Shown: positions 1 through 58,067 of the stretch, piece after piece | How positions within the stretch are numbered: position 1 is the first letter of the stretch | Layout: the number at the start of each line of letters is the position of its first letter | Origin: Ceraceosorus guamensis | Taxonomy: Eukaryota > Basidiomycota > Exobasidiomycetes > Ceraceosorales > Ceraceosoraceae | Assembly: GCF_003144195.1 (NCBI RefSeq) | Contig: NW_020290045.1 | Span: forward strand, 79,885 to 143,884 | DNA: 64,000 bases | Direction of reading: 5' to 3' | Notes under the pieces: generated by a model | Told to the model about the DNA's origin: nothing | Seen by the model: the letters and a program-made list of their open reading frames with translations, nothing else | Databases searched by the model: none | Position numbers and translations under genes: made by a program

Positions 1-1219
1 TGTTGGCGCTACGCCAGCCGAGACGGCGACGCAGGTAGGACAGTTCGTTCGCCCGCAATTGCTTGATGCGCTCCAAGTATGGTGACTCCCAAGCAAAGCA
101 TTTGATGATGCGGATACCAGACATGAGCTCGGTGATTGCACGAACGCGTGCATCGGTCCACTTCATGGAGCGTTTCCTGAGTGAGAACAAGTGCTTTGTG
201 ATCAAGCTTTGGCTTGGTGAAAGGAGCAGCACGAAGGCAAACCCGGGCAAAGCTGAATATCCTAAGGTGTAGATTTGCAGAGCTAGACAGATGGCGATCT
301 GAACAATGGAAGTCCACGCCATGTGGAAGAATTGACAGCAATAGTCGATGCGGCTGACGTCGGCGGATATAAGTGTAACGAGCTTCGAATTGCTGAGGCC
401 TCCAGATACCCGAGACCTATTTGATAGGCGCATGGCTCGACGGTAAATCGCATGAATGAGCGCTGTCCGCAGAAGGATTCCCGTGCCAAATCCGCGATAG
501 AAGGAATGGACGTTTAAGAAGACGATAATGAGCTGGACAAGGAAGAGTCCGATGCCAAGACCGATGCCTTGGCCGATGTGAGGAGCTGGTGGAGCACCTG
601 GCCGCTTGCTATTGTACGAAGCAGTCACAAAGTCTGTGATGGAACGAAGTAGCAGCGGCGAGGTGATGGTGCCTATATCAGACAGCAGTTTCAGGAAGCC
701 GCCGGTCCAGAAGAAGACGAGGACAGTCTCGTTCATTGCCATTGCCAGCGATGGCTTCTGAGGCTCTGGCGCCTTGTTTCGCCTCCAGAAGAGCAAGCGT
801 GGGGAGCGGTTTCCGGACGATGTCCCACCTCCGACGTCCATCACTTTTTCCGACTTGTCTGCCTCCGAACCAACCTCAGGTAGCCCCTTCGCAGCATTCG
901 CAGCTTGAGCTTTCAAGCACTGTCGTTGCCAAGCTCGTTCCAGACGATCTGCATACTCGGACGCTTGCGTGCTATCCTGCAACCGATACAGATCCTCAGG
1001 GGTCAGCGGCCGGGTATAGCCCACAGTGAGCAGTTTGTTGAGCCAAGAGAAGGTGACAATATTCCACCAACTCGCGTGCAGCTCCGGTGTCATGACTGGA
1101 TCGTCGAGAGACGAGAGCACTGGCCGGGGCTCCGTCGATAGGAATGGCACCCGACGATACCGTGGTCGCGGTGGATAGCGCGGCACGTCGCCCGCCTTCA
1201 TCAGCACCGTGTTCGACAT
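1..1219 (-). CDS. ABCC-type ABC transporter, N-terminal part (cut by window edge)
   Basis: One open frame of 406 codons runs from an ATG at 1219-1217 off the left edge, with no intron needed. The first 180 or so residues are a cytosolic N-terminus with the WWNIVTFSWLNKLL segment typical of full-length ABCC/MRP exporters just before the first membrane domain. Hydrophobic helices follow (for example around LGIGLFLVQLIIVFL), then the family signature of ABC membrane domain 1: KWTDARVRAITELMSGIRII followed by KCFAWESPY. The nucleotide-binding domains must lie outside the window. In Ustilago maydis a putative ABC transporter (fer6, from memory) belongs to the ferrichrome A cluster, so export of the siderophore or an intermediate is a reasonable inference. 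A general drug or conjugate pump remains possible. The gene points away from the rest of the cluster. Confidence 0.85.
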   Translation of the reverse strand, partial: MSNTVLMKAGDVPRYPPRPRYRRVPFLSTEPRPVLSSLDDPVMTPELHASWWNIVTFSWLNKLLTVGYTRPLTPEDLYRLQDSTQASEYADRLERAWQRQCLKAQAANAAKGLPEVGSEADKSEKVMDVGGGTSSGNRSPRLLFWRRNKAPEPQKPSLAMAMNETVLVFFWTGGFLKLLSDIGTITSPLLLRSITDFVTASYNSKRPGAPPAPHIGQGIGLGIGLFLVQLIIVFLNVHSFYRGFGTGILLRTALIHAIYRRAMRLSNRSRVSGGLSNSKLVTLISADVSRIDYCCQFFHMAWTSIVQIAICLALQIYTLGYSALPGFAFVLLLSPSQSLITKHLFSLRKRSMKWTDARVRAITELMSGIRIIKCFAWESPYLERIKQLRANELSYLRRRLGWRSAN

Positions 1220-3250: not shown

Positions 3251-4571
3251 ATGTACGGTAATCCTGAGCCCGACTTTACCGTTCCTTTCAAGAGCGTGAC
3301 CATCGAAGGCGGCGCGACATTGGACATCGAGGTCGATGTCTACCTGCCAGCGTCAACAGGAGATAGCGCAAGCCTGAGCAATGCTGTACTGTACATTCAT
3401 GGTGGAGCCATGGTCGCCATGGTAAGTCCAAAGGAACCCTTCCATCCACATTTTGAAAGCATGAAATTGCGGAAATTCGCTCACGTACACATCGCTCGAT
3501 CAGGACAAGACCGACATACCCATCTTCTTGCCTCGATACGCCAAATCCAACCATCTAGTACTCATATCTACCAATTACAGATTAGCACCGCAAGGCAAAG
3601 TGCAAGAGGCGGCTAGCGACTGTATCGATGCTGCCAAGTGGTGCGAGAGCGATCTGCAAAAAGCCATGGATGAGCATGCTTCAACGTCGACGAGCAGCGC
3701 ATACAGACCGCAATGGAGCGGAAAGCTGGCCATTATGGGCGGATCTGCCGGTGGCTGGCTCACCTTGCTCGTCGCTGCCGCCGGCGTGCCGTCGATAAAA
3801 GCTGCGGCTGCAATTTATCGTGAGTGGTAGTCCTTCCCACTTCTCATGAAAGGTAGCGACGTCGCTGATCAAGTGCGACATGTGCTGTCCACAGCCATGA
3901 CCAATCTCAGCGATCCTCACTTTGAGAATGTGCGTGGTGATCAAAGCACTCTTTGCAATTCGAGCATTGTTGGTGGAGCAGCAATAGACTGACTGAGACT
4001 TTCCCAATGCACAGCCTATGGATGTACCAGCTTACGATCGCGAGACTGTAGCCGAGTATATTGACGGACCCATTGTTGCTGGAGCCGAGCCCGATTTGGA
4101 TTACGAGACGGGAGCTCTAAAGGGAAGGCATCGAGCTGCTTACTACATGGCCAGCCAAGGGCTCTGGCGCAATTGGCTGCTTGGCGAGGATCACTCTGCG
4201 GCTACGCTTGAAGCATACGATGCCAGACGACTGGTGCACAATCGTTGGCCGCCGACCTTTTTGCTGCACGGTGAGTCTGGTTCCGTAGTCGCAGTCGCAG
4301 TCTCCATCGCTCTGCTCGTCTACACGATCCCAGACTCACCTTTCTTCGCCTCGCTGGCTGAATGACGTGCTCAGGCGCCGGCGACACTACTATCCCACCT
4401 ACAAATAGCCAGGACATGGCCGAATCTCTTAAGAAATCCAAGGTCGAACACGTGCTTCGTCTCGTACCCGAGAAACCGCACTTCTTCGATATGCTTGCGC
4501 CTCAAGAGGCCGAGGAGGAACTGGGGATCACGGACATGTTGACCTTCTTGGTTGAGCAGATGGAGCAGTAG
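3251..4571 (+). CDS. Alpha/beta hydrolase (esterase/lipase fold-3 type), five exons
   Basis: Model: join(3251..3421, 3504..3819, 3895..3929, 4015..4270, 4375..4571), 324 residues; all introns are GT-AG and 75-104 nt. The full catalytic machinery is visible: the oxyanion-hole motif HGGA at about residue 50, the nucleophile elbow GGSAG with Ser about 138, the acid in GAGDTTIP (Asp about 263) and His about 295 in EKPHFF. This is the layout of small carboxylesterases of the BD-FAE/hormone-sensitive-lipase type. There is no signal peptide or membrane segment, so a cytosolic enzyme is likely. It sits 1 kb upstream of a hydroxyornithine acyltransferase on the same strand, so hydrolysis of a siderophore ester or acyl bond to release iron is attractive, as fungal siderophore esterases do for fusarinine-type compounds. 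That role is inference; a generic esterase is equally compatible with the sequence. Confidence 0.85.
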
Positions 4572-5605: not shown

Positions 5606-7127
5606 ATGGCTACCGCACTACCTGGTCAAACCCAGCCTCCCTCGGCTGTCATCATCCCCTCTGAGCGCCCTCTGAGCGAGAGGTTCACCCTGCCAGATCT
5701 GACCGCCATCAGTTTCGACGCCAGCAATGCCGACGAAATTCAAGTATCGATCGGCGTGATGCCAAAACAGAAGGATGCGGAGCTCAAGCCGCTCGCACTG
5801 TTTCGAAGAGCAGGCGGAGAGGATGCAAGGAAGGCGAGGGTCAGCTTGCATGGTGCTGTGAATGACGATCGAGCCAAGCACGAGCAGGTTTGGCAACTCG
5901 ACGCTCCGCAAGATCAGAGCTCCTTTGAGCTCTCGCCTGCGGACACTTGGGCTGCCCTGTATGCCTGTGAGTATCGGCACGATCCTATCGCCCGCCTCGA
6001 TGTCGTTGGGATTCGGACATTGATCCACGCATGCCCCTTTGCCCGTAGTCTGGATCCGCAACGACTTCAACGAGCGTTTGCCTGTTGAGCTCGGCACGAA
6101 GTTGTCCAACCGAGACCACATTCTGGCGTATCTCACGCACACTGGTTTGGGATTTCGAGCCCCCGATGCAGTTGGGCGGTATGAGCTACTATGGGATCGC
6201 AGCGCCTTCTGGCAAGGTGAGGCTTGAGCCTGTACCAGATGGTCAAGCGTCGTTCGCCACTGACGATCAAGATTCTTGATGCTGCAGGTGCCGGTGCACC
6301 TCTCGGGCGATCGTGGCTTCAAGCGCCCCTTCCAGCAGCAGATGCATTCGGGCCACTCACCAGCACTTCATTTCCGCACACGCTCTCCTTTACAAAGTCG
6401 GACAACCCGCCAGTTCTGACTGCCCATCCTCTGCGTCCACCCAAACCAGCACCGGGAAGCATCGTCTACTCTCGCTACATTCACAGCGTCAAGCAGCACC
6501 TCACCTTGACCCACATCAACCCTGACGATCCCAAGCACTTCGAAGCTTATTGCAGGTGGCAGAATTCGGATCATGTCAACAAGGGCTGGAGGGAAAGAGG
6601 TTCGGAGGATTATCATAGACAGTATCATAAAGGACGTCTTGCTGATCCTCATATCATGGGCTACATTCTGTCTTGGGACGGCGAGCCTGCCGGATATGGC
6701 GAAGCCTCATTCAACAAGGAAGATGTGAGTAACGATCCGTAGCGTCTAAATCTCCCAAGGAAGCAGGCTTGCTAACGTTGTCTCGTCTGCAATATGCTTC
6801 ACGCAGGGCATGGCAGCATTTGTAGGCGGCATGGGCGATTACGATCAAGGTACCCACCTACTGATCGGCGAGTCCAAATTCCGAGGACGTCATCGATTCG
6901 CCTCTTCCATGGTCAGCATGAAGCATTTTTGTTTCCTGCGAGAATCCAGGACGCACATCGTGATTGGAGAACCGCGATTCGATCTGCCGATCATTCCTTT
7001 GCTGGCTCAGCATTTGCCGCAATCGTGGCGCAGAGAGGTGGAGTTGCCGCATAAAAGGGCTGTATTGTTCCTGCTACACCGCGACCGCTTCTTTGATGCC
7101 GGACCTTCTGGTGGCATCTTCTACTGA
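5606..7127 (+). CDS. N5-hydroxyornithine acyltransferase (SidF/Fer5/SidL type)
   Basis: Model: join(5606..5966, 6049..6216, 6288..6724, 6807..7127), 428 residues with GT-AG introns of 71-82 nt. The C-terminal half carries the siderophore-acyltransferase (GNAT/IucB-like) block: a TLTHINPDDPKHFEAYCRWQ stretch, DPHIMGYILSWDGEPAGYGE, then DYDQGTHLLIGESKFRG, FLRESRTHIVIGEPRFD and a terminal FLLHRDRFF followed by GPSGGIFY. The enzyme transfers an acyl group from CoA to N5-hydroxyornithine. Fer5 uses methylglutaconyl-CoA, SidF anhydromevalonyl-CoA and SidL acetyl-CoA; sequence alone does not tell which. The neighbouring enoyl-CoA hydratase favours a non-acetyl donor. The protein ends in IFY, so no peroxisomal PTS1 is present, unlike what is reported for A. 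fumigatus SidF. The start is the first ATG after the CAAG leader. Confidence 0.9.
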
Positions 7128-7355
7128 GCGAGCTCCTGATGCTCCAAAATATCGCGAAATGTCATGAGGCATGCGTTGCCTGCACCCTGTCCGAGGCCGC
7201 ACGAGACGAGCTGCTTGGCAGACAAGGAGGGTGCAAGCGTGACGAAAAGCGTCTGACCAGCTCGTACTTACGAGCATGAAATCGTTCCTTTCTGAGATTA
7301 CGAGAGCCACAGTCTAATTTACACAAAGCAGGCACACGACTACGATCGCACCATT

Positions 7356-8555
7356 TTACTTGCCCACAAAGTTGGGCTTGCGTTTTGCGGCAAAAGCGAG
7401 CAGAGCTTCTCGGCGATCCTGAGTGGGCAAGAGTTTCTCGTAGCACATGCGTTCCCACTGGAGCGCATCTTCCAACTCGAAGTCGAGTCCGTGCGAGATC
7501 GCCATTTTTGCAGAAGCGAGGGCCAAAGGGGCTGTCGGGAGGTGTGCCATTTTAGGTCGGACGGGTCCTGGTGTGAGCCCCGTGTCGCATAGAAGGCAGG
7601 GTGCCTGGGTGCAGGCGAGCGAAAGCACTCACCACTCTTGGCCATACGCTGGGCTAGTGCGAGTGCTCGCTGTGCTGCGGTTTGACCCTCGTCTGCTAGG
7701 TAGTCGATCAAACCCCATGATTTGGCCGTCTCGGCATCGATCAACCTTCCGGTGTAGATGAGCTCTTTTGCGCGCGCAAGACCGATCAGACGAGGTGCTC
7801 TTTGCGTCCCTCCAGCGCCTGGAATGATGCCTAGCTGAACCTGTCACATTGGCGTGCGCAGGAGAGGCAATCGTACGTCAGAACGCGTACACGGCTAGCA
7901 CGCATCACGCAGTGCTGTACGCGCTTTTGCTCACCTCTGGAAACCCAAGCTTGTCGACGCTAGGACTAGCGATTCTGAAATCGCAAGCCAAGCTGAGCTC
8001 CAAACCTCCTCCGAGAGCAGGTCCGTCGATGGCAGCGATTGTCGGTACGGGAAAAGCGGCCAACTTGTCGAAGATTCTTCTCAAGTCGGACAAGAAGCCC
8101 ACCACTTCTTGTTCAGACATGGATTTCCTCTCGATCAGATCTGCTCCTGCGCAGAAAGCATTGGTGCTGCTGCTCTCGATGATGACGCATCTGAGCGGTT
8201 CTTTGGCCTGCGATGATCGGATCGTGGATGCAGGGTCCTTCAAAGAGCCGATGGAGGTGTGGTGCGAGGAAGGGGACGTGGAGCGAGAAGCGCTTGACGA
8301 TGTCGGTGGGGAAACTTTGCTGGACCCGTTGGCATCCTGGTGAGCTTCGGAAGGGGTCAAGGAAGCTCTGCGAGGAGGTGTGGCCCAACCTGAAGGCATG
8401 ACGCTCGCCAGCGCCAAGATTTCATCCAAACGATCATCTAATTGTGCCAGAACCTCGCGCGAAATGGCATTGCGAGCTTCGGGTCGGTCTAGTACTATGC
8501 GGTGGATACCTCCTGCAAGAGGCTCCTCATGCCGTACCAGAATAGGCTTGGTCAT
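7356..8555 (-). CDS. Enoyl-CoA hydratase/isomerase, AUH-like (Fer4/SidH type)
   Basis: Model: complement(join(7356..7567, 7633..7834, 7935..8555)), 344 residues. The crotonase core is clear: RIVLDRPEARNAIS, the oxyanion motif NAFCAGADLIERKSMSEQEV, DGPALGGGLELSLACDFRIA, GFPEVSKS/LGIIPGAGGTQRAPRLIG spanning an intron, and the C-terminal helix ending AAKRKPNFVGK. The CAGADLIER and MSEQEV pattern is typical of AUH, the methylglutaconyl-CoA hydratase branch. In siderophore clusters this family makes methylglutaconyl-CoA from HMG-CoA (Fer4) or anhydromevalonyl-CoA (SidH), feeding the neighbouring acyltransferase. The start is the first in-frame ATG, just before the conserved strand. About 65 Ser/Pro-rich residues (genomic 8208-8402) interrupt the core between helix 1 and the next strand: either an in-frame insertion or an unrecognised intron with a weak donor. 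The two genes converge, with stop codons about 230 nt apart. Confidence 0.88.
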
Positions 8556-8799
8556 GTTAAGGTCTGGCGCGATTGCTTGTGGTTTTGAATCTTGACTGGA
8601 TGAAAGAGGACTTGAGGAGGGCCTGGGCTTCACAGAAACTCCACAATTCTGAATGCCTTTATGGTCTCGGCTTTGCCGTTCCCTGCTAGTGCAAAAGGCT
8701 TGTTGGTTGCATGCAGACTGCGGATGTGGACATTTGGACAGCCGTTCCTAGGACAGAGGAAGAGACCTGCTAAAATTCGAGATTTGTGACTTGATCTCT

Positions 8800-8808
8800 T
8801 TATCGGAT
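8800..8808 (-). promoter_or_regulatory. GATA-factor site ATCCGATAA
   Basis: Read on the minus strand, the sequence is ATCCGATAA, matching the ATCNGATAA shape of the 5061 site. It lies about 245 bp upstream of the hydratase start. It lacks the preceding G/T of the Urbs1 site, so it is a weaker candidate for that factor. Confidence 0.4.
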
Positions 8809-9301
8809 GAATCGTGGATCAAAATGTTGACGAGCAATCAATAATGCGAGGAACGTGTATGCGCCAAGATCGAGATCGAGAGAACAGGCGAGGGAACTCG
8901 ACGAGGTGCATGTAATCTACATGAACTGCTGGAGCCTTGTCAAAAGTCTCACTTTTTGACTGCATGAGCAAGGCGTGAAATCTTGCTGTTCTGCCCATGC
9001 AGCTTTCAATCAAGAATCCAAATCCGTCATCACGCTCGTCATTTGTACGTGGCTCGTGACTTTGAGATCGTAAAGCATATGCTGCGATGATGACCAGTCG
9101 CGCGCGTCGAAAGTCGAAGCTCGATCCCAGCAAGCAAATTCTTGATTCACTTGGGCGTCTCAAGCTTCAAGGATCAACTGAGCACGCAAATGGCGTCTGT
9201 TTCTGGTGCGTCATCACAGACATATTCACATTTACGATTCTCGAAAGGTCCGACTCGTGATCCAAACTCACGCCATTGACTGCTCCACATGATGCGAAAC
9301 A

Positions 9302-9322
9302 AGAGAGAGAGAGAGAGAGAGA
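9302..9322. repeat. (GA)n microsatellite
   Basis: About ten GA dinucleotides in the divergent promoter region. Purine tracts of this sort are common in promoters and may affect nucleosome placement. Nothing else is visible. Confidence 0.9.
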
Positions 9323-9659
9323 CGATTTTGACCGAGGAGGTCGACCAGCCGGCAGCGCTCCAACGCCGCGAGAAATTCAAATTGGCAGGTGAAGCCCTCA
9401 GGCTTTGCGACCCGCACTTGACTGCATGTAGTTGCATGCTCATGACATGCATGAACACCTGCTGACGCAGCTGGCCATATCTGATCTCCGCGGAAAAATA
9501 AAAAAATAAAAAATAAAGGCATTGCATGACGCGCATTTTCTCGTGCGATAGGGTCTAGCCCATATGTGTACAATCTTGAATACAATCTTAAATATATCGG
9601 CTGGGTGATCTATTCAAATTACTTAGTCGCAATGCGACTGAGGAGTGAAGTCAAATAAG

Positions 9660-9665
9660 TGATAA
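9660..9665 (+). promoter_or_regulatory. GATA-factor site TGATAA
   Basis: TGATAA fits the (G/T)GATAA core reported for Urbs1. It lies about 640 bp upstream of the synthetase ATG in the shared promoter region. A second core, GATAA at 9852-9856, lies 190 bp further on but is preceded by C. Confidence 0.4.
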
Positions 9666-10114
9666 CCGTAAAGCTTCCGGAGCCACTCAGACTGCATTTT
9701 CGGTCATCTTAATTCGATGTCGGCTGTCTGGTTTGTCAGCCTCGGCTGAAGTGAAATTGGGGCCGAGCCGCCGGCTCAATCGAATGACGTGAATAATTGT
9801 GTTTAGTCCACACCGTAAGGAACACTGAACAGCGCCTGCCGCACATCGACCGATAACCTGGACGGATTAGATGTACATCCTTCTCCACACCTACGCCCAC
9901 TCAATTCGCACTCACGATTGGTGTTGTTCTGTCTCACTCAGTTGGGCTGGGCAGACCTGCCTGACAGACGCCCATCCAAAAGGCGGAGTCGTTTAATTGC
10001 GAACACCCGCGCCGGCTTCATTCCTGATTTGAGCCGCACGCGCGCTCTTTGCTCTCTCAAAATCGACGCCATCTACAAGCCGCTTCTCGTCGTTGCTTCT
10101 GCGCTAGGTGCCTC

Positions 10115-10120
10115 TATAAA
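10115..10120 (+). promoter_or_regulatory. TATA box of the synthetase gene
   Basis: A perfect TATAAA in the context CCTCTATAAAGC lies 180 bp upstream of the synthetase start codon, a plausible distance for a fungal TATA element with a leader of roughly 100 nt or more. Confidence 0.45.
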
Positions 10121-10299
10121 GCTAAGCTGAAGCTGTCCGTGCCCGAATCTAGAGTATTCGGGTCATCTGCTACGCAGCTTCTTGCTCCCCGCGCTCGAAA
10201 AGGCATACCGTCGAAATAGGGCAGGTCACCTTACACGCTGCCCGCGTTTGGTCGTCCGAGCCGCCCAGCGCAACGGAAGAATCAGCGTGTCTACGTGGA

Positions 10300-13200
10300 A
10301 TGACGGCGTCGACGCCCATCGCAGAGACCAGCAAGGCGGGCGGCTCTTCCACAAGTCTGCGCGCAACACCGCCAGCAGCAGCAGGAACAGCAGCAGCGAA
10401 AGCACCAGTTGCTGACTCGCTTGAAGCGACGATTGCGCTCTTGAAGGAGATCTCACATCAGCGCTTCCCGAGTGTTGCAGACCAGACCGGACTCAAACAT
10501 TCACGCGTCTCTTTCAGCTGCAACCTCGACGCTTCCATCTTCAGCTCCTTGCAAAATGAAAATGTGGATGCAGTTGCGCTGCTTCGAGCAGGCGCGTATC
10601 GACTTGTCACGGCCTATGCGGACTCGGACGAAGTGCTCATGGGCGAGCTAGAGAGGGATGGCGGAACAAAGCTTGCTCGTCCGATCTGGCATGAACAATC
10701 TTCGATTGAAGAGGGAGGGCATCTCACATGGAGGGATGCAGCGCTGAAGCTGGCTGAGGAGATCAAGACCAAGAAGGTGCTGTCAGAAAGAGAGATGGAA
10801 CGAGGTCTGCGTGAGGCGCAACTTCGCCTCGACGTACGAGAGTCTCCGGCGCTCTTCAGCTTCGCTGCATTCGATCTTGCAACTCTCCGAGAACGTTGGT
10901 ATCCAGTGAATGGGCTGGCTGTAGGAGTCAGGCATTCCACACAAGGCTGCTCAGTCGATGTTGTCGCTGATGCGGTGATACTCTCAGAGCGCGCTGCTGA
11001 GCTGTTCGACAAGCAACTTTGTCACCTGGCGTGCCGCTACGCTCCAGCACTCGACAGCGCATTCTTTGAGGAGGGTCAAGGGAACTTTTCCCTTGCTGGT
11101 GCATTTTCCGGGTCCCGCGCCTCTGCGGAGGAGAAGCTTGATCTCCTATCAGCGTACGAGGCACCGTATGATGCGTCCAGAGCGCATTTGCCCATCGCGT
11201 GGTTGCAGAAGAATGCTCGTGAACGACCTGACAGCCTGGCTCACATACTGTGCGAAGAGCCGGATAGCGAGCGCCAAGAGCTCACTTTCAGGGAACTTGA
11301 CCAGCGAAGCACTCAGCTCGCAAATTGGCTATTAACGAGAGGGGACACGGAAATCGAGAGCCGCATTGGTGTTTGTCGGCCTCGAGATGCACACTTTTAC
11401 GTCGCCATGGCAGCCATCATGAAGGCCGGCTGCTGCTACGTGCCAGTAAGTCAGCGTCGAAGTTTACCGGATTCCTAGCGAGCTGACACAAAAGCCTGGT
11501 AATGGCTTCCAGATTGATCGTGACTTGCCAACCGAGCGCAAGGCTTTCATTGCCAAAGACTCTGAAGCAGTGATCGTCTTGACAGATCGAGACCACGCGA
11601 AAGCAGATGAGAAAGTCTTTGGCTCGAAAGGCATCGACATGTCGCTAGATACAAGCTTTGAGAGACAAGTCGCCTCGCATTCCTCTACCGAGCTCACAGA
11701 AGTGGATGTAGCTCTTGATGGCCTGGCTTACATTTTGTATACATCCGGCACGACGGGCAACCCAAAGGGTTGCTTGCAGCTGCATCGAGGTCTCTACTGG
11801 GCCATCGAAGCGATGTGCATCATGCCTCGCCCATTGACCAACGCGGACACGGACCGAAGACTGGCCATGGCAGCAGTGGCCTTTGACGTGCACATTTCCG
11901 AGATCGTCCAGTCTTGGGCGCTTGGCCTTTGTCTCGTCAGCGTGGCTTCCAGATTGTCGCTGCTTGCCGATCTGCAGGACAACATTGAACGCTTTGGGAT
12001 TACGCACATAGGCATGGTGCCGAGCATGATTGAGGCGACTCTAACCAAGACGCCCGAGGAGCTGCCAATCAAGTATATCGTGTCTGGCGGAGAAAAGATG
12101 ACGGATGCTGTGAGTGCGGCGCCTGGGTAGCGAATGCCGACGTGCACTTTTTTCGCATTGCGCTGATCGCGAGTGCTTCCGCACATTAGGTACTGTCTAA
12201 ATGGGCCGCTCACCCAGGCATCGTGTGCGCCAACTTCTACGGACCTACTGAAGCAACCATCGGCTGCACTGCGAGGCGCGTGCGTGGTGTGCAGGACCGG
12301 AGAGACAACATTGGTCTTCCTTTTGAAGGGTCCGGCGCCTACGTAGTGGATTCAAACCTTCGCCTCCTGCCGCGCGGAACACCAGGCGAGCTAATCATTG
12401 AAGGCCCTCTAGTTGGTCGGGGATATCTCAACTTACCAGAAGTCACAAAGAAGGCGTTCGTGGAGTGGCCTCGAGCAGGGTGCCGAGCTTATCGCACCGG
12501 CGACTTGGTGCGCATGAACCACGATGGCACTATTCTGATTGCTGGTAGAATAGACTCGCAGGTCAAGCTTCGCGGCGTGCGGATAGAAAGCGAGGGCGTC
12601 AGCGCAGTCATCAGAGACGCCTCTACCGATCCATCCATCGATGCCGTCACAGTCGTCACGAGCCACGAGGCAGTGGGCGAGGGATCCGAGCTGCTAGTGA
12701 CCTTCGTTGCCATCAATGACGGAACGGTCTCTGCAAACGAAAGGCGCTCGGCTCCGGCCTTAGCGAGCATCGACCTCGGTATCATGGCTACATTGAGGCA
12801 AGCTGCGACGCAAGGTCTTGCTTCTTATATGCGACCTTCTCACATCATTCCTTGCAAATTTCTGCCTTTGTCCCACAATGGCAAGGTAGATACCAAAGGA
12901 CTCATCGCCTTGTTCAAACAGACCGATATGAAGGAATTGATCGCCTTGCAGGAAGCAGACACAGAAGAAGACGCAGATGTCGATGCCGATCGCCCGCTCA
13001 CGAACCTTGAGCAGCAGGTGGCCGATACCATCACGAGTATCAACGGGGCCAAGCCAGATGGCATCCGCCCTTCGAAGCGTCTCTTGGAGTGTGGCCTGAA
13101 TTCCTTGCAATTGGCAGCACTCACCGGTCTCTTGAGGAAGCACGCAGGTAGCACTCTGTCAGTCGCTGAAGTCTTGTCGTCCCGGACCATTGCCGGATGT

Positions 13201-16200
13201 GCGCAGGCTATAGAGAACAAGTCGAAAGTCGACGGAGCGCAGGAACCTTCAGATCTCGACTTGAAAGCCTTTGACCGCCAACATCGCCAAACGGCCGAAG
13301 AGCACTTCAATCCCAAGGACATTGAGTCTGTGCTGCCGCCGTTTCCAGTGCAACCAGGCGTGCTCTTCCAGATCACGCAAGATCGGTCAGCGTATGTTCA
13401 ACACTTCCTCTATGAGATCCCAAGTCAATCAGCTCTGTGCAATGTAGAGCAGATCTCAAAGGCTTGGTCCGCTGCAGCCTCGCGACATGCGATATTGCGC
13501 ACATGCTTCGTTCAATCCGAAAGCGCATTACTGCAGGTGGTGTTAAAGGCGTCGGCAGATTCCGCACAAGCTCCCGTAATCTGCTCACCTCTCGCACACC
13601 GCCAAATAGAGTCTGCGACATCCTTTTCAGAAATTTTTCGGTCGATGCTCGCTGCAGGTGTTGCGCGCGACATCAACGAAGACATCGCTACGCCATCTTG
13701 GAGCGTGCACATCTTCTGCGATGCCAAAGCACCCGAGGCTGCGAGGTACTTTAGCTTGTCGCTGAATCATGCACTGTACGACGCATTCGCTGTGCAAGCC
13801 CTGATGAAAGACGTCGACAATCTGCTCTCACAAGCGCCAGCATTATGCGCAACTCCGCTGGCAATGGAACAGATACTGGCCCAGATCGGTGACAGCTCGT
13901 CTGACGTGCACCGGTCGTTTTGGATCGGCGAGCTGCAACACACGACCCAGCTTCAGTCGACCGCAAAGCGGCCCCGACGCGGCGCAAAGTCGACGCGCAC
14001 CCAACGCGTCCTCGACATTCCCCTCAGCGATGTGCAAAGCACTTGCGCTCGATTGGGCGTGACGCTGCAAGCCCTACTCTATGGCGCTTTCGCATTTGCA
14101 GCGAAATCGTTCTGCGACTGGTCAGATGAAGCTGTGTTCGGCGTGAGTCGCGTGATATTGCTGATCATTTCCTTGCTTATTGTTGACGCTCCATGCCCTC
14201 TCCGAGCCCCGCAGACTGTTCGGAGCGGACGCAATCTACCTCTTGACGGCATCGAGAGCGCAGTCTGCCCTCTGGTGACCCTTGTTCCAACACGTATTTC
14301 GCTACGCCACGGCGGCATAGCCAACTTTGTGGAGACCGCTCAGGAGGGACTTCTTGCGAGCTTGCCACACGAGCATGTACCTCTGGGATCAATTCAAGGA
14401 TGGCTTGGAGCGAGAAGCCTATTTGACGTGCTCTTCTCGTGCCGACACGTCGCTCAACCGCACTCCTACAAGCATTTCAAACATTTGGAGGGCAGCCCGC
14501 CAACTCCAGAGTTCATCTTGGCAATCGAGACCGTCTTCGACGACCCTTCGGATGCTGTCCAAGTGCGCGCTGCTTTCACGGATGATGTTGCAGAAAATGA
14601 GGTGGAAACCATTCTCAAGAGTCTCGAGGACTACCTCTCGGCTTTCTATAACGCAGATGAAGCTGCTTTGCCAGCTCAGGACACACGCACAAGTGCGCAC
14701 GCCCATGGATCATCTGGCTCGTCCAAGCGAAGAACGGAGGACGCCGAAGATCCTGATCCACCGCACGATGTGCTCCAGACAGTGAGACAAGTCACTGCGC
14801 AGTTCCTGCACCAAAATATTGATGGCGTGGCTCCGAGGACATCACTCGTGTCCCTAGGTCTTACATCTCTGCGTGCAGTTGCACTGGCACAGAAGTTGTC
14901 GGCCGCCGGCTTGTTCGTGGAGCCCCTCGACATCATTCAAGCAGGCTCGCCTCGTGGTATTGCTGTCAAGGCGCAGTCGACTGGCTTCAATGCTTCGGAT
15001 GAATCTCAGAATCGCTCTGACGTGAACGAGACCGAAGCCGCACTGATAGAGGAACTAGGAGGCACGGAGAGGCTGAAGCTTTCGCCAGCTGACGCGCCTC
15101 AGCTAGCTGAGTGCACTCCTCTGCAGTCGGGCATGCTATCGCAAACTGTTTCATCAGGTGGCGAGCTCTACGTCCACGCTTTTCCGCTTCGTCTGAACGA
15201 CGCGATCGACCTTGAGCGCCTGGAAAGCGCTTGGAACGTCGCTACCAGGACTTTTGAGGTCTTACGCCTGACCTTTCACTTTGCGGCCACACACGGTCGA
15301 TGGTGTCAGGTGCTGCACAGCGCTGATGCAGTGCAGTCTCCATGGCTGCGCATAAGCACCTCGGAACCTTCTACAGAGCTGTCCAAGCGAGCCATTGTGG
15401 CTCTGAACATGGGATCAGAACATGCATTCGAGACACCACCAGTGCGTCTTTTGCTTGCGAGCTGCGAATCAGGACCACATCATCTAGTCATTGCGCTTCA
15501 CCATTCGCTGTACGACGGCGTCAGCTTCAACAACCTGCTAGAGCATGTCGCGCGGCTGTATGCGAACGAGGAGCTTCCGCGCCACCCATCATTTTTGGAC
15601 GCCGCAAGACGGATTTCAGTCTCTCAAGTGCGCTCACTCCAGTACTGGACTGAGCGCATGCAAGGCTGCAACACTCAATTTTTGCCTTCGCGAAACACGG
15701 TATCTGGCCCAGATAGCACCGCTGCCTGGCGCGCTTCCATCGGCCTCGACGCAGAGCAAGGACTTGAGCTTCAGCGAATCGCTCGGCGTTACCAGGTGAC
15801 ACCTCAGAGCATAGGACAGCTGGCTCTTGCGCAAGTATTGAGCAAGCGCAGCGGACATGTTGATATCTCGCTTTGCCAGGTTGTTTCGGGACGGACGATG
15901 CGCGAAGCTGCCGATGTCATTGGTCCAGTCTTCAATACTATCCCCTGTCGAATCGCGCTCTCGCATTCCAAGAAGCAACGCAATGCACTCAAAGAAATCA
16001 ACGCTGCAAACGTCGACGCGCTGCGCGCGCAGCATGCGTCTCTCCGCGACATTCAGAGAGCCGTCCGAGTCAGAGCGGTGTCCGACGTCTTATTCGTCTT
16101 TCAACCTCACATTGACACGGGAAAGGAGCACAGGGAAATTCGGGACCCGTGGACGGTTGTGAAACGGTCGTCCGACACTGATGAGAGCAGCACGCAATTC

Positions 16201-18421
16201 AGTCTCAACATCGAAATGCACGAGCAAAAGGGTGCGGGCTTTGCTATTTTTTCGAGCTGCGCTGCGGATGTCTTTTCAAAGGCGGACCTTGAAGATCTGC
16301 TCCTTGATCTTCGCACTGCCATCACAACGATTCTCGCTAATCCTGGTGCTCCAAGCTGCACTCGGGAGAGGGAAGAGCATGCTCGCACAGTATCACACAA
16401 AGACGGGATGCATGATCTCACCAATGGGCCTGGTAACGCGGCGTCGGCGTCGGCGTCAGCGCCTGCTTCTGCTCTGTCTGCGTCACAGCAAAGGCTTGTG
16501 GAGATTGCTGCACAGGCGTTGCGTACCGAGTCTACTCAGCTGAAGCCTATGGCAAAGCTTGCACACCTCGGGCTCGACTCGATCGCCGCTATACAAATCT
16601 CCTCGAGAGCCAAGCGGGTCAACATCAAGCTTGCTGCGGCTCAGATTGTGCGCGCAGAGACGGTCAGGGCATTGCTAGACTTGGTGCAAGACACGGAAGA
16701 ACCGAGGCCGCCACCAAAATCCTTCGAGCTGCCCAAGCTACCTGATAGGATCGCCAGTGCTGCCGTCGCCCACTTGAGCAGAGAGCATCGAGAAGGAGCA
16801 CAGGCTCTGCCTGCTCCGGCTGGGATCGAGTACGTCTTCGCGGGCTGGCAGCGCTCGGGAGGGCGGTCGTTCCAGACTGCCATTGCGCGCAGGTTCCAAG
16901 GTCGCCTTGATCGAGATGCACTGATGAGAGCTTGGACGAATCTGCTGCAACATCACAGCATCCTGCGAAGCACAGTCGCGCCAACGAACGATACTGAGCA
17001 TCGCATTGCGCTCCTCGTCTTAGCCGAGGCTTTCTCGCCGCCGCTCGAAATTGTCAATCTTCACCAAGGTGAGGATGAAGAAGTTGCTGAAGTCGTTGCA
17101 CATGCACGTGCTGCGCTTTTGGCTCCTCGAAGCGTGCGCGAACCGGCGAGCCGGCTGTCACTCCTACAAGGCGCGCACGACGATTACATTGTGCTCGTCT
17201 TGCCCCACATCCATTACGGTGCGTTTTTCTCCCTAGAGCGCCTCGTGCCATTTCCGAAAGATCGCAGCTGACATTTGAATCGCGCAATCGACTAGATGGT
17301 TGGTCTTTGCCACTGCTCCTCAGGGATCTGATACGTCTCTACGATGGAGAAGAGCCCAGCTCGCCCGCCGATCTCAGGCCGCTGCTGGAGAGCTTCTACG
17401 CTAGCGCTCATCCTGAGGACCTCCGAGCTCGCTCGTGGCGTGAGCTTTTGGGTTCCTGCTTTGCGCCTTCATTACTGTCTTTGCAGGCTGAAGGAAACCC
17501 AGAGGCAGGATCTGTGGTGTCGCACGTGTCACTGGAAGACCGTTCCGCTCCACATCCAGATGAGCTGCGACGCGTCGCGATGAAGGAAGGCGTGTCCGCG
17601 TCCTCGCTGGTGCTCGCTGCGTGGGCCATCGTACAAGCGCGAGCTGTCACATCCTCCAGTGCTACATTCGGCATCGTTCAGACCGGCCGCAGCGGTGGCG
17701 ATTCTGATGCGCTTGCGCAGCTTGCAGCGCCATGCCTGAACCTGGCCCCTCTGCATGTTTCCGATCTTGCGAGCAAGGGAGACATCGCATTGCGAGTGGT
17801 CGGTGCGGCTCGAAGGATTCAACAGGACCTGCTTTCGAGACCAATCGAAATGGAACAAGCCCGCCTGATTGACGTCGCTAGCTGGGTCGGCTGCCCGGCA
17901 AACCCCCTGATGAACGTCAGCGTCAACCTTTTGTTTGCCACGCAAACGCGGGATCCTGAAGCAGTGGCCGACTCCACCTCCTCGCGCTGGAAGCCTATTT
18001 CGGTGCGTGCAAAATGGCTTTTGGAGTTCATTCTCGGCGCCGGGCCGCGTACTGATTACCGAGTTCTTCTATTTGCAGATTCCACATCAATTCACCGTTG
18101 AAGAGCAGGCAAAGGCTCACATTCCCGAATTGTATCTTCAAGGAGAGCATGGTGCTCTGCTCTTCCCAGAGATTCAGGTGAGCATGTGCCGTGCAAGCCC
18201 ACCTTGAACACCCGCGAATCTGTTTTCTCACATTACGGCGGGCCTTCACACAGCTTGATCTTCGCATCGTGGTCGCTGTCTCAAGAGAGGATGGCCGTCT
18301 AGTTTTGTACGCAGAGGTAGCACACCAGCGTTTAGAGGAGGAAAGGGTTGGCAAGCTGCTGTCAGAATGGTCAAGCTTGCTACATAGCCTGACACAACTC
18401 GGCAAGGAGCACGAAGAATGA
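10300..18421 (+). CDS. Siderophore NRPS with A-T-C-T-C-T-C architecture (basidioferrin-synthetase type)
   Basis: Model: join(10300..11445, 11513..12109, 12190..14142, 14215..17218, 17296..18002, 18079..18177, 18254..18421), 2557 residues, six short introns. Residues 1-280 are a degenerate condensation-like region, as at the N-terminus of ferrichrome synthetases. One adenylation domain follows (about 290-840): YTSGTTGNPKG, AFDVHISEI, FYGPTEAT, YRTGDLV, GRIDSQVKLRG and LSHNGKVD. Three carrier domains carry the phosphopantetheine serine: CGLNSL (about 880), LGLTSL (about 1445) and LGLDSI (about 2015). Three condensation domains have active-site motifs NHALYDA, HHSLYDG and PHIHYDG; the second, catalytic His is kept in all. 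There is no thioesterase; a C domain ends the protein, as in fungal siderophore synthetases. One A domain serving three T-C units fits iterative use of a single acyl-hydroxyornithine, as described for CsNPS2. It lacks the extra A domains needed for Gly/Ser in ferrichromes. Confidence 0.93.
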
Positions 18422-20247
18422 GCTTGCTGTGCTAATACTAGTTGACCTCGACATATTTATCAAAGTGCATCATGTATCGTCACACCTATAGAGACATGGA
18501 AATCGCGACCTCAACATTGATTAGACGTATTCGCATGGACGATCGCGAATTGGCATGGGGACGTTGTTGTCCCTTCGAAAGGCTGCCTAACGTTTGTGGT
18601 GCTTTAATTGCATACGAATCCTGCTCTACGTCGGCGGCAGGTCGCGTCGGCATGCCTTCGGTCTTGAGTGTGGTGAGAAGTGCTGTACCACTGCGGTGCC
18701 CAAGTGTTCCTGCCTGCTAGCGCAAGCATAAACGTACTACAGGCGCCGAGGTGTATTCTTACATAACCAAGCTATATCTGCAATCTTGTAAGCAAGAGTC
18801 AAGAGTCACAAGTAGCAATCTAAATCGAGAGCGAAAAAGAATTTCGCTATGTGCGCCTGAATGTCCAGCTCAAACAGCAGCATGCAACCCTTCTTGATCC
18901 CTCACTAATCACTTCCGAAAGCTCGCGACGCTCACACGGACTTCTCGCGCGACTAGATTTGAATGATCGCGAAGTCGTGACGAATCGGAATTGGTACGGT
19001 ATACATTGCTTGCGTCACCCGTGTCGCTGGTTGAAATTGAAGCGGCGAATTGTAGCTAGATGCCTTGCATTAGCGTCAAAATTCAAATTTCAATGGAGCT
19101 GCATATCCTGCTGGCCAGCTAGCTGCTGCTGGTCGCTCGTGCTGGTAGTCGTGAGTCGTCGCTGCAGATATGCACGTTCTCCTCGCGCATGAGGGCTCCT
19201 GCTGTCAGATCGGATAGCAAAGTGAATCGGAGATCGGATATGGGACGACAAATATTTTTTTTACCCTGCTAAGAGGCCTACAGCAGCATGCAGCATGGTG
19301 CGCCTTGCTCCACTTTTGCACGGCACACCGCTCGATCGTACGTACATGCGTCTGCGTTACCCCCTGCTTTCTGTGCCTGCCCGCGGGCAGCTGCCCCTCG
19401 CATAGCCCAGCATTTCCAGCAGCTTTGACTGCAGCGTGGCTATAGGCTGATCACAGCCGCACCTCTCTCTGTGAGGCATGGTTGCGGGTGAGCACATGCT
19501 GCAGCAAGCAGCAGCAGCAGCCTCTGTGATTTGGCCACGCCCATGGCATCGGCGCGTCGCGCAAGCGCACGCGAGCATTACGCGGGATACTCCACTCAGA
19601 AGACTCACAACATATGATCTGATCGATCCGGCACATGATGACTCGTGACTCACGACTGCTGGTGCGACTGCGCGCAAGCATCTTTCTTGCCTTGCTTCTG
19701 ACGATCGTTAGCTTCACTTCAGCCTGCAGTGAGACGAGCTGCCAAATGGGCTGACGAGCTTAATTGGTCTTCAGTGCATGACCGTCATCCTCATCTTTCC
19801 CTCCACCCACACGTCCACATATCTTCATGCAAATTTCGGCGCAGGTCGATAGATCCAAGGTCACAAGTCTCGCGGTTTATATTTCCGCGTCAGATCGATC
19901 AGCAAACACCGCCCGGCCGCTCGGTCGCCGACTATATTCACGTAAAGATCGTTAGCATTGCCAGCCGCTCAACACGTCAAAGACAACACACCACTAGCAC
20001 AGCCATCTCGCACACTCACATTCCGGTCTCAATTTACGCCCGCCACAGTCCGCCCGAGACACCCGTCCATAGCGGCGAGTCTGCTGTGTGCACCCTGCGT
20101 GCTGGTGTAGGATTCATCCTTGGCCCAGCTTTTGTAGCAAAAGCGCTTTCGGCCTTCAGCAAGACTCCTTTCATCTCCCAACGCCCTTTAAGTGGGAAGC
20201 ACCACTTCACCCATACACATCGCTTCTCACCTTGATTCGGCATCACG
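18422..20247. other. Intergenic region between synthetase and MFS transporter
   Basis: 1.8 kb with no credible coding frame. A TTATCA (TGATAA on the minus strand) lies at 18457-18462, just after the synthetase stop; this is an odd place for a promoter element of the transporter. GATAG/GATAT cores occur near 19210-19240. Motif-family boxes cluster at 18793-18812 and 19639-19658. A TTTATATTT sequence near 19877 may serve as TATA for the transporter. Confidence 0.5.
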
Positions 20248-22603
20248 ATGGCTCCGAGTTCCCGCGAGGGCCAGTCTTCTGGACGCGGGAGGTCTCAAGA
20301 TGGTCCTGTCGCCATCAGCAGAGACGAGCTCTCACAGAGAGAACACGCAGAAGCTTTACCTGCGGCTGTGCTCGTGGAGGAATTCTCAGCGGCAAACGCA
20401 GGCGGACGTAGCAGCAGGGATGGAGATCGATTCGAACCAATCAAGGCGGATCGCGATGTGGAATCTGGATCGCCATCGCTCAAGAGCCCCACTCTAGACG
20501 ACTCGCACGCAGCTTCGATGAGCGATTCCGAGCAGAACAATTGGAATCGGCATCAGAGACACCAGCAAGCAGGCGTGTCAAAAATGGAAGCGCTCTACAG
20601 AGTATTTGGCGGAAACAGGACGCTCGTATGGAGCTTGTACGTGGCCGTCGCTGGTGAGCATCTTGTCAGCAGTGGATCTTAGCATCGCGTACCGCAACTC
20701 ACCAGAGCATCATTCTCAACTCGCAGCCATTGTCATGTGCTTCTGCTTCGACGGCAGCACCACCAGCCAGTACCAGATCTACGGCGCTTCTTCTTTTGGC
20801 GAGCATGCCTTCCTGTTGAGTTTCATCGATACCGCAGAGTCAATCATTAGTGAGTCTTCGCTGCGCACGAACGAAACAGCGGCAGGCAGGACCATGACGA
20901 AGAATCTCACGCGTATCGTGCCGCCTCTCAGTTGCCGTCTCCAAGCCTTTCATCGCCAAGGTCTGCGACGTGTCTTCGCGACAAACGGCATATATGATGA
21001 TTTTGGTCTTCTACGTCGTTGGATACGCCATCGTCGCAGCTTCGCCAAGTGTAGGCGCTTTCGCAGCCGGAAGAATCATCAGCGCAACCGGTCAAGCAGG
21101 CTTGGATCTCGTTACAGACATCATCGTAGCCGACATCAGCCCACTGCAATGGCGTGCTCTTGTCACTGCTGCTACTTCTTCCCCCTACCTGTTCCTCTCC
21201 TGGATCGGGCCCAACGTCTCTGGCCCCTTGATCGCTCACGACCCACCTCTTTGGCGATGGGGATTCGGCATGTTCTGCATCATGTGAGTTGGATTGCGAT
21301 ACCCTTAGTGGCACACCTTGCCGACTTTGCTGCTCTCTTCTTCCCCCTTAGTGCGCCTGTATGCGTCATGCCTGCCGTCATCATCATGTACATCGCAGAG
21401 CGAAAGGCCAAGAAGAATGGCCAGCTGGCTTTTGGTGCCAGTCTATACGAGCGCCGCTTGATCGCAGCAGATGGAAGTCTGGTCAACAAGGAGAGCAAAC
21501 TATCCGTGCTACGTCGGTTCGCCGTCGAGATGGACCTGATTGGTCTCTTCCTCTTGACACTTTCATGGTGTCTCATCTTCTTGCCTTTCAGTCTCGCTTC
21601 GAGGGCAAAGGGAAAGTGGGCCAATCCCTCCATCATCGCCATGCTGGTTTGCGGCTTTGTAATTCTGGGCATGTTTGCAGCGTGGGAGATTTGGGGCGCA
21701 AGCCAGCCCATCATGAACAGGCGCATCCTCAAGAATCGCACATTCCAATTGGCAGTCACCATTGACATCTTCTACTTCTTGACCGGAACACTGCGCTCGA
21801 CTTACTACAGCTCATACGTATACGTCGTCAAGCAGTGGACGGAGATCAATTGGGGATACTATATCAACATCGGCACGTTTGGTCTAACCCTGTTCGGCCT
21901 TTGTGCAGGAGTTCTGCTGCGCATTACTCATCGGTACAAATACCTCCAGGTATTCGGTCTGACCATTCGACTGGTTGGCAACGGCGTTGCGTTGTGGGCA
22001 CGGGGAGCCAACGCCAACAATGCCGCCCTCATCTGGGTACAGATCCTCATCGCCCTCGGCGGGTCTTGCTCCGTCGTCGGTACACGAGTGGCCTCTCAAG
22101 CGTCCGTCCCTCATCAGGACCTTGCTTCAGTCATCGCGCTGCTGAGCCTCTGGAGCAAACTCGGTAGCAGTGTTGGCAGCGCCATTGCAGGAGCTGTCTG
22201 GGCCGGCACCATGAGAGACTACATGCGCGAGGAAGGCGTACCACCGAATCTTATCAACTCTCTGTACGGAAGCGTCAAGAACGCGCGCAAAAATTACCCA
22301 CTGGAAGATCCGATTCGACAATCCGTCATCCGCGCGTACAACCGCACGGTGTATCCTCTCTTCCTCGCCGCTACCATCGTGTCGGTCGTGCCGCTGCTCG
22401 CAGGTCTGTTCATGCCAAACTACTACCTCGGCAAATCGCACAACAAGATCGAGAACACCGATGTGGGCGGAAGACGTGTCGCCGGCGAGGGTCCAGGTAA
22501 TGATCCTACCACCGCACCAGGCGAAGCTCCGAGCGTTGTGGCTGAGCCCGAGAGGCCCAAGAGCAGGATTCGCCGCGTGTTTGAACTCGCTTTCAAACAG
22601 TGA
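20248..22603 (+). CDS. MFS siderophore-iron transporter (SIT/ARN family)
   Basis: Model: join(20248..20653, 20727..20849, 20932..21283, 21352..22603), 710 residues with 68-82 nt introns. A hydrophilic N-terminus of about 115 residues precedes the first membrane segment (RTLVWSLYVAVAAIVMCFCF). Further membrane helices run through MILVFYVVGYAIVAASPSVG, the loop GAFAAGRIISATGQAGLDL and SSPYLFLSWIGPNVSGPLI, to the last helix near residue 665, consistent with the 12-14 helix SIT family. Fungal SIT proteins import ferric siderophores by proton symport at the plasma membrane or endosome. Position in the cluster makes the cluster's own siderophore the likely substrate, as for the siderophore transporter in the U. 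maydis cluster. Many MFS proteins look alike, but the order and content of helices 4-6 match SIT better than drug exporters. An AATAAA lies about 100 nt past the stop (22702-22707). Confidence 0.88.

Positions 22604-54706: not shown

Positions 54707-58067
<3,361 letters not shown>

Follow-up and report, generated by a model that had tools for sequence, protein, structure and literature searches.

A one-adenylation-domain siderophore synthetase next to ferrichrome A-type acyl-tailoring genes in Ceraceosorus guamensis: a candidate cluster for a branched-acyl hydroxyornithine trimer

A stretch of 64,000 nucleotides from the basidiomycete Ceraceosorus guamensis (contig NW_020290045.1, positions 79,885 to 143,884 of the forward strand; hereafter the window) carries a siderophore synthetase gene with a single adenylation (A) domain, which is located next to genes for an enoyl-CoA hydratase and an N5-hydroxyornithine acyltransferase. 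According to the reading favored here, to which we give an even chance, this is a dedicated siderophore cluster making an amide-linked trimer of N5-methylglutaconyl-N5-hydroxyornithine; if linear and unmodified, such a trimer would have the computed formula C33H50N6O16. The evidence was taken from the window itself, from the PDB, from Pfam and NCBIfam profiles and from passages of open papers. The genes in the window are interrupted, as is typical of eukaryotic DNA, and the gene models are predictions from sequence alone, built on hand-picked GT..AG introns. The Pfam searches covered all 77 listed open reading frames of at least 150 amino acids together with four other pieces; exons shorter than this mostly fall outside this coverage.

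The synthetase gene is open from its ATG at 10300 to the stop codon at 18419-18421 without any internal stop, and its exons comprise positions 10300-11445, 11513-12109, 12190-14142, 14215-17218, 17296-18002, 18079-18177 and 18254-18421. In the Pfam analysis of the spliced parts, for which the cut-offs were 29.9 and 30.6, the AMP-binding profile was matched over its entire length with 235 bits, and the Condensation profile with 72.1 bits by the first condensation (C) domain (C1) and with 60.5 bits by the third (C3). The long exon of the gene includes three stretches matching PP-binding and matches Condensation with 223.7 bits, the best stretch being C2. The conserved motifs follow each other in the order FYGPTEAT in the A domain (residue 597), GLNSL in the first thiolation (T) domain, NHALYDA in C1, GLTSL in the second T domain, HHSLYDG in C2, GLDSI in the third T domain and PHIHYDG in C3. 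All three T domains retain their serine, and the histidine and the aspartate of the HHxxxDG motif are retained in all three C domains. A tblastn search with each synthetase domain against the window (E ≤ 0.01) yielded no second A domain, and AMP-binding was not found by Pfam outside the synthetase among the 77 open reading frames. The C domains matched only one another, with pairwise identities of 21-25%. Pfam, motif order and tblastn are thus in agreement with an earlier interpretation of this DNA (the sequence-only reading), which had described one A domain followed by T-C-T-C-T-C. Type VI synthetases, the one-A-domain architecture of Bushley et al. (PMC2644324), consist of a single A-T-C module with a T-C repeat behind it, and the synthetase of C. 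guamensis has this arrangement.

Two further parts of the protein were looked at individually. C3 (16804-18418) gave only weak matches in the PDB (21 sequences at E ≤ 1, best E-value 5.8e-09), and these contain no pointer to a particular release chemistry. At the other end of the protein, the approximately 275 residues ahead of the A domain (10300-11124, plus strand) do not include any recognizable domain. That this N-terminus might be what is left of a former C domain was considered and rejected, as neither its first 300 residues nor a 215-residue part of it matched any Pfam family and hhalign gave no match to C1-C3.

With a single A domain being present, its substrate is of particular importance for the product. 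The best single-domain match of the A domain in the PDB was A3 of SidN (3ite; 273.6 bits, query residues 45-551). The next chain aligned in one stretch reached 202.3 bits, and 8xjz reached 239.0 bits as a sum over two stretches. Five linear gramicidin synthase A chains ranked above SidN A3 (374-379 bits), each of them with two stretches; in the two alignments displayed, single domains of this synthase scored approximately 178 and 190 bits. For the pocket region, no PDB sequence other than SidN passed E ≤ 1e-12; 59 of the 133 residues aligned with it are identical, and a slightly longer pocket query gave 95.6 bits for SidN versus 46.1 bits for the next sequence.

The 17 pocket positions of Bushley et al. 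(PMC2644324, Table 2) were read by eye using the GrsA numbering, which was derived from GrsA motifs; an alignment with residues 222-367 of 1amu puts the aspartate of the FD motif at 235 if it is ungapped. For comparison, 21 codes of the same table were used, eight for hydroxyornithine and 13 for glycine, serine or alanine, leaving out the GrsA row and a degenerate Sib1 domain. The eight codes most similar to the one from C. guamensis are exactly the eight from hydroxyornithine-activating domains, with 8-10 of 17 positions being identical, and the mean similarity is 33.8 to this class versus 13.5 to the rest. Val280 occurs in four of the eight hydroxyornithine codes and Gly331 in seven of them, while both are found in none of the 13 others. 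With the pocket of SidN A3, 10 of the 17 positions are shared. Read in this way, the code points to the hydroxyornithine class, without telling which acyl group the substrate bears. A specificity for glycine or serine was rejected on the basis of the pocket codes, and a grouping of the A domain with activators of these amino acids, which the sequence-only reading had named as an outcome that would speak against its proposal, did not occur. One scan of bacterial and archaeal genomes confirmed no relatives of the A domain.

The two presumed tailoring genes are convergent and 228 bp apart, to the left of the synthetase gene, with the acyltransferase being encoded on the plus and the hydratase on the minus strand; the hydratase and the synthetase genes diverge from a shared intergenic region. 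The hydratase (exons 8555-7935, 7840-7633 and 7531-7356) matches ECH_1 with 166.8 bits. Human AUH (1hzd), a methylglutaconyl-CoA hydratase, was the first of 170 matched PDB sequences (E-value 3.1e-60, 207.4 bits), followed by 3kqf and by 5jbw/5jbx, which we take to be LiuC, a dehydratase of 3-hydroxy-3-methylglutaryl-CoA (HMG-CoA). Both glutamates with catalytic roles in AUH-type crotonases are aligned with those of AUH. The NCBIfam matches listed for the hydratase (25 of 72 families) were all below their cut-offs. A stop-free Ser/Pro-rich stretch of 195 nucleotides (8208-8402, minus strand; approximately 65 residues) within this gene either encodes an insert of the protein or is an in-frame intron whose donor site is non-canonical, and dropping positions 8402-8208 gives the usual spacing of an enoyl-CoA hydratase. 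The acyltransferase (exons 5606-6004, 6115-6216, 6272-6724 and 6807-7127, the first two introns being uncertain) matches Acetyltransf_8 with 92 bits. Its best PDB match is SidF (7qf6, E-value 8.2e-39), with 2qml coming next (5.8e-9), and no NCBIfam family was matched. The catalytic histidine and the downstream glutamate, as mapped by the alignment with SidF, are retained; the corresponding histidine is essential in Sib3 (PMC11424930). The presence of an AUH-like hydratase and a SidF/Fer5-like acyltransferase beside the synthetase, as had been suggested from the letters alone, is therefore corroborated by Pfam and PDB matches.

Neither of the two enzymes carries a peroxisomal targeting signal (PTS) of type 1 or type 2. 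Fer4 and Fer5 of Ustilago maydis are likewise devoid of a PTS, whereas all ascomycete orthologs of SidF and SidH identified in the same study carry PTS1 (PMC3709128). Translated from its first in-frame ATG, the hydratase shows no obvious presequence within 30 residues (five basic, four acidic), with an upstream exon being possible.

Under the methylglutaconyl reading, the hydratase would dehydrate HMG-CoA to 3-methylglutaconyl-CoA, and the SidF/Fer5-type GNAT would move the methylglutaconyl group onto N5-hydroxyornithine supplied by a monooxygenase whose gene would lie elsewhere. The single A domain would activate the finished hydroxamate amino acid and load all three T domains, two C domains would form the amide bonds between the three units, and the released trimer would be moved by the MFS transporter and perhaps also by the ABC transporter of the cluster. 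That one A domain loads three T domains is suggested by analogy to SidC and to Type VI enzymes, in which one A domain serves several T domains via inter-module loading; in SidC, it is A3 that loads downstream T domains (PMC10192304). The acyl identity, the amide bonding, the linear form of the product, the role of C3 and the use of the transporters are what we infer in this scheme. For linear, unmodified trimers, the calculated masses of [M+H]+ and of the iron complex are 787.3356 and 840.2471 with methylglutaconyl, 745.3978 and 798.3093 with anhydromevalonyl, 703.4600 and 756.3715 with hexanoyl, and 535.2722 and 588.1837 with acetyl; end groups may add to these values. If the acyl group is methylglutaconyl, an amide backbone is, by chemical reasoning, the reasonable one, because fusarinine esters use the hydroxyl group of anhydromevalonyl while methylglutaconyl ends in a carboxylate. 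A fusarinine-type ester with methylglutaconyl is hence unlikely. The alternative of amide or ester bonds, which had been left open in the sequence-only reading, is in this way narrowed on its ester side, as methylglutaconyl lacks a hydroxyl group, while the amide side appears reasonable.

A more specific form of the proposal, to which we give somewhat less than an even chance, is that a Type VI synthetase has been joined to that branch of ferrichrome A synthesis which derives the acyl group from HMG-CoA. The amide-linked tri-(N5-methylglutaconyl-N5-hydroxyornithine) would then carry three extra free carboxylates and might be basidiochrome-like, the genes would be the first cluster for such a chemistry, and C3 would serve for release or end-capping. 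The idea of a branched-acyl hydroxyornithine trimer that matches neither of two published products is plausible in view of the hydroxyornithine-type pocket and the Fer4/Fer5-like neighbors. Its novelty was, however, overstated, because only CsNPS2 and ferrichrome A had been used for comparison and Cpf1 had been missed; a non-acetyl trimer is not new in kind, as Cpf1 makes a hexanoyl trimer.

Several observations weigh against a methylglutaconyl trimer. Position 301 of the pocket is a serine, while all eight hydroxyornithine codes have a glycine at this position (SidN: valine). The code is also no nearer to A3 of Fer3, the methylglutaconyl enzyme (8 of 17 positions), than to the others, and the glycine-activating code of Sib1 A1 is likewise identical at 8 of 17 positions, though with a lower similarity score. 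Moreover, pocket codes predict poorly in general, and substrate preference could not be derived from a 10-residue code (PMC2644324). A linear trimer would need two C domains, one fewer than are present, and the hydratase keeps its Ser/Pro-rich stretch if this is not spliced out as a non-canonical intron. No ornithine N5-monooxygenase family was matched (E ≤ 0.001) among the 77 open reading frames and the four other pieces, with the cluster possibly running past the left edge of the window. The motif ATCWGATAA, a consensus for GATA-type iron sites, is absent from all 64 kb, and ten TGATAA sites are spread over the window instead of being concentrated in the cluster; the idea of a shared iron-regulatory GATA site hence found no support and was dropped. 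Finally, Fer4 has been placed in the SidH column of a published comparison (PMC3709128, Table 1), and CsNPS2 has been thought to be SidD-like by its domain arrangement (PMC8152254), which makes an ester product conceivable.

The latter two points touch on the possibility that the acyl group is anhydromevalonyl. In this case, a SidH-like hydratase would act on mevalonyl-CoA provided by a SidI-type ligase encoded elsewhere, with a linear tri-(anhydromevalonyl-hydroxyornithine) or an ester of the fusarinine type as the product. We regard this as fairly unlikely. Since Fer4 and SidH share a column as counterparts, the similarity to AUH alone cannot separate methylglutaconyl from anhydromevalonyl. 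Furthermore, SidF, an anhydromevalonyl transferase, is the best solved relative of the acyltransferase, and the A domain is best matched by SidN A3, which we take to activate anhydromevalonyl-hydroxyornithine. A linear tri-anhydromevalonyl compound is known in the form of des(diserylglycyl)ferrirhodin. Together with fusarinine C, it has been reported from the basidiomycete Agaricus bisporus, in the same source that likens CsNPS2 to SidD (PMC8152254). The matches to SidF and SidN are, however, the best among solved structures, no SidI-like ligase with an AMP-binding domain is encoded by the 77 open reading frames, and both enzymes lack PTS1 and PTS2. It is also conceivable, but unlikely, that the trimer carries acetyl or simple fatty-acyl groups, as in basidioferrin or coprinoferrin, and that the AUH-like hydratase is a bystander. 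AUH is a leucine-catabolism enzyme, which would fit such a bystander, and the A-domain code is not specific for methylglutaconyl. The Type VI enzymes characterized so far indeed use acetyl or hexanoyl (PMC10192304). Against this speaks that the hydratase and the SidF-type acyltransferase genes lie so close to each other and adjoin the synthetase gene, that the hydratase has no obvious presequence from its first in-frame ATG, and that U. maydis uses the same pair of activities for siderophore acylation (PMC10098057).

It is very unlikely that the cluster is silent or non-working in this strain. The missing GATA-type iron site, as judged by one consensus, and the uncertain introns in two genes would be in line with this idea, but no stop codon interrupts the reading frames over thousands of bases, the introns are mostly regular and the catalytic motifs are retained. 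We consider it highly improbable that the synthetase works together with a multi-A-domain synthetase or with free-standing A domains in trans and that the product is ordinary ferrichrome or ferrichrome A. Nothing speaks directly for such a cooperation, even if the neighboring genes match the ferrichrome A set of U. maydis; the one A domain in the window has a hydroxyornithine code, and its architecture is known for trimers devoid of glycine and serine.

All features of the cluster and its surroundings are compiled in Table 1. The sequence-only reading had bounded the cluster at 5606-22603, and these borders indeed coincide with the ATG of the acyltransferase gene and the end of the MFS transporter gene; they leave out the genes for an ABC transporter and an alpha/beta hydrolase just to the left, and the cluster may run past the left edge of the window. 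The MFS transporter (exons 20248-20653, 20727-20849, 20932-21283 and 21352-22603) has no solved relative in the PDB at an E-value of 0.01; by its sequence pattern, we take it to be of the siderophore-transporter (Fer7/SIT) type. The ABC transporter, of which only a fragment is available, matches MRP_assoc_pro with 142.9 bits, below the whole-protein cut-off of 1470, and is a possible counterpart of Fer6. The comparison of these two transporters with Fer6 and Fer7 is by family only. The Abhydrolase_3 protein, a tentative member of the cluster, might conceivably be a siderophore hydrolase. On the other side, two long open reading frames adjoining the cluster (23874-26003 and 26007-26765, minus strand; 710 and 253 amino acids) gave no Pfam match. 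Beyond approximately 31 kb, the Pfam matches are those of housekeeping genes, namely an M24 peptidase with creatinase N-domains, lipin, a protein kinase, an RNase PH family protein, RRP5 and an ARG5,6-like protein. The latter, an ornithine-supply enzyme with amino-acid kinase, NAGS-like and semialdehyde dehydrogenase domains, is encoded at 54710-57102 on the minus strand, approximately 32 kb from the cluster, and its closeness to the siderophore genes is probably a coincidence.

Table 1. Positions of the predicted genes, domains and intergenic regions within the window.
Feature	Position	Strand	Evidence
Type VI siderophore synthetase, A-T-C-T-C-T-C, 2557 amino acids	10300..18421	+	7 exons, Pfam, tblastn, motifs
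A domain of the synthetase, with two introns in its coding sequence and a pocket of the hydroxyornithine type	11170..12966	+	PDB matches, pocket code, Pfam
SidF/Fer5-type N5-hydroxyornithine acyltransferase (GNAT), 424 amino acids	5606..7127	+	Pfam, PDB
AUH/Fer4-type enoyl-CoA hydratase, 334 amino acids	7356..8555	-	Pfam, PDB
MFS transporter, candidate siderophore transporter	20248..22603	+	MFS_1, 58.1 bits
MRP-type ABC transporter, N-terminal part, cut by window edge	1..1219	-	ABC_membrane, 94.2 bits
Alpha/beta hydrolase (Abhydrolase_3) adjoining the cluster	3251..4571	+	Pfam
Intergenic region from which the hydratase and synthetase genes diverge, 1744 bp	8556..10299	.	one TGATAA at 9660; no ATCWGATAA

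If the methylglutaconyl reading holds true, acyl-supply genes and synthetases would recombine as separate blocks, and the tailoring known from ferrichrome A would occur on a trimer backbone. The A-domain pocket would then be a testable sequence feature for the choice of the acyl group in Type VI enzymes. Furthermore, genes would be tied to the class of carboxylated trishydroxamates, for which no gene cluster was found in the passages of the literature covered. The general picture of how such synthetases work would remain unchanged.

Among the known systems, the two characterized Type VI synthetases are the nearest with regard to the architecture of the enzyme. Both make trimers, CsNPS2 the acetylated basidioferrin and Cpf1 the hexanoylated coprinoferrin (PMC10192304). 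Coprinoferrin, the product of Cpf1 from Coprinopsis cinerea, is a trimer of N5-hexanoyl-N5-hydroxyornithine (PMC10192304, PMC7902601, PMC12617850), and its cluster shares with the one described here a single adenylation module, a triplicated T-C unit and a clustered acyltransferase (PMC7902601, PMC12617850). It differs by the hexanoyl group and by a clustered N5-monooxygenase, and the passages covered mention no enoyl-CoA hydratase. The published formula of coprinoferrin, C35H65N7O10, exceeds that of a bare hexanoyl trimer. CsNPS2 from Ceriporiopsis subvermispora belongs to the same synthetase class (PMC10192304), but it is an acetyl system; a monooxygenase is present in its cluster as in that for coprinoferrin, whereas an acyltransferase was identified in the coprinoferrin cluster only (PMC12617850). 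SidN is, unlike the synthetase of C. guamensis, a multimodular enzyme making epichloenin A, and 7 of the 17 pocket positions differ. The ascomycete fusarinine pathway (SidI, SidH, SidF and SidD) also combines a hydratase and a GNAT of the families found here with a product of three acyl-hydroxyornithine units. Yet, SidH and SidF have peroxisomal signals, the pathway includes SidI, for which the open reading frames of the window hold no similar protein, and its esters need a hydroxylated acyl group. On the side of the product, basidiochrome probably carries methylglutaconyl residues and may even represent the chemistry proposed here. It is a tripodal trishydroxamate of basidiomycetes, as would be the compound proposed here, with Rhizoctonia as the exemplary producer (PMC8470733, Table 1); for this siderophore of Rhizoctonia/Ceratobasidium, no gene cluster was found in the passages covered.

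With regard to the surrounding genes, the closest likeness is to the fer3-fer8 genes of U. maydis. There, fer3, fer4 and fer5 are each required for ferrichrome A, Fer4 has been assigned to HMG-CoA, and further members of the cluster are two transporter genes and fer8, which is of unknown function (PMC10098057, PMC13208730). The literature searched, which was mostly open-access and covered in passages, contained no description of Fer4/Fer5-like genes together with a Type VI synthetase. Fer3 itself differs clearly from the synthetase of C. guamensis, as it comprises three A domains or more (AMP1-AMP3; PMC2644324, Table 2) instead of one and its product is a cyclic hexapeptide. In both species, however, an enoyl-CoA hydratase and a hydroxyornithine acyltransferase, each without a PTS, and two transporters surround the synthetase, a likeness at the level of families. 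As the two enzyme families and the absence of a PTS match the fer set, and the two transporters may do so, the cluster of C. guamensis resembles a fer cluster into which a one-A-domain synthetase has been swapped.

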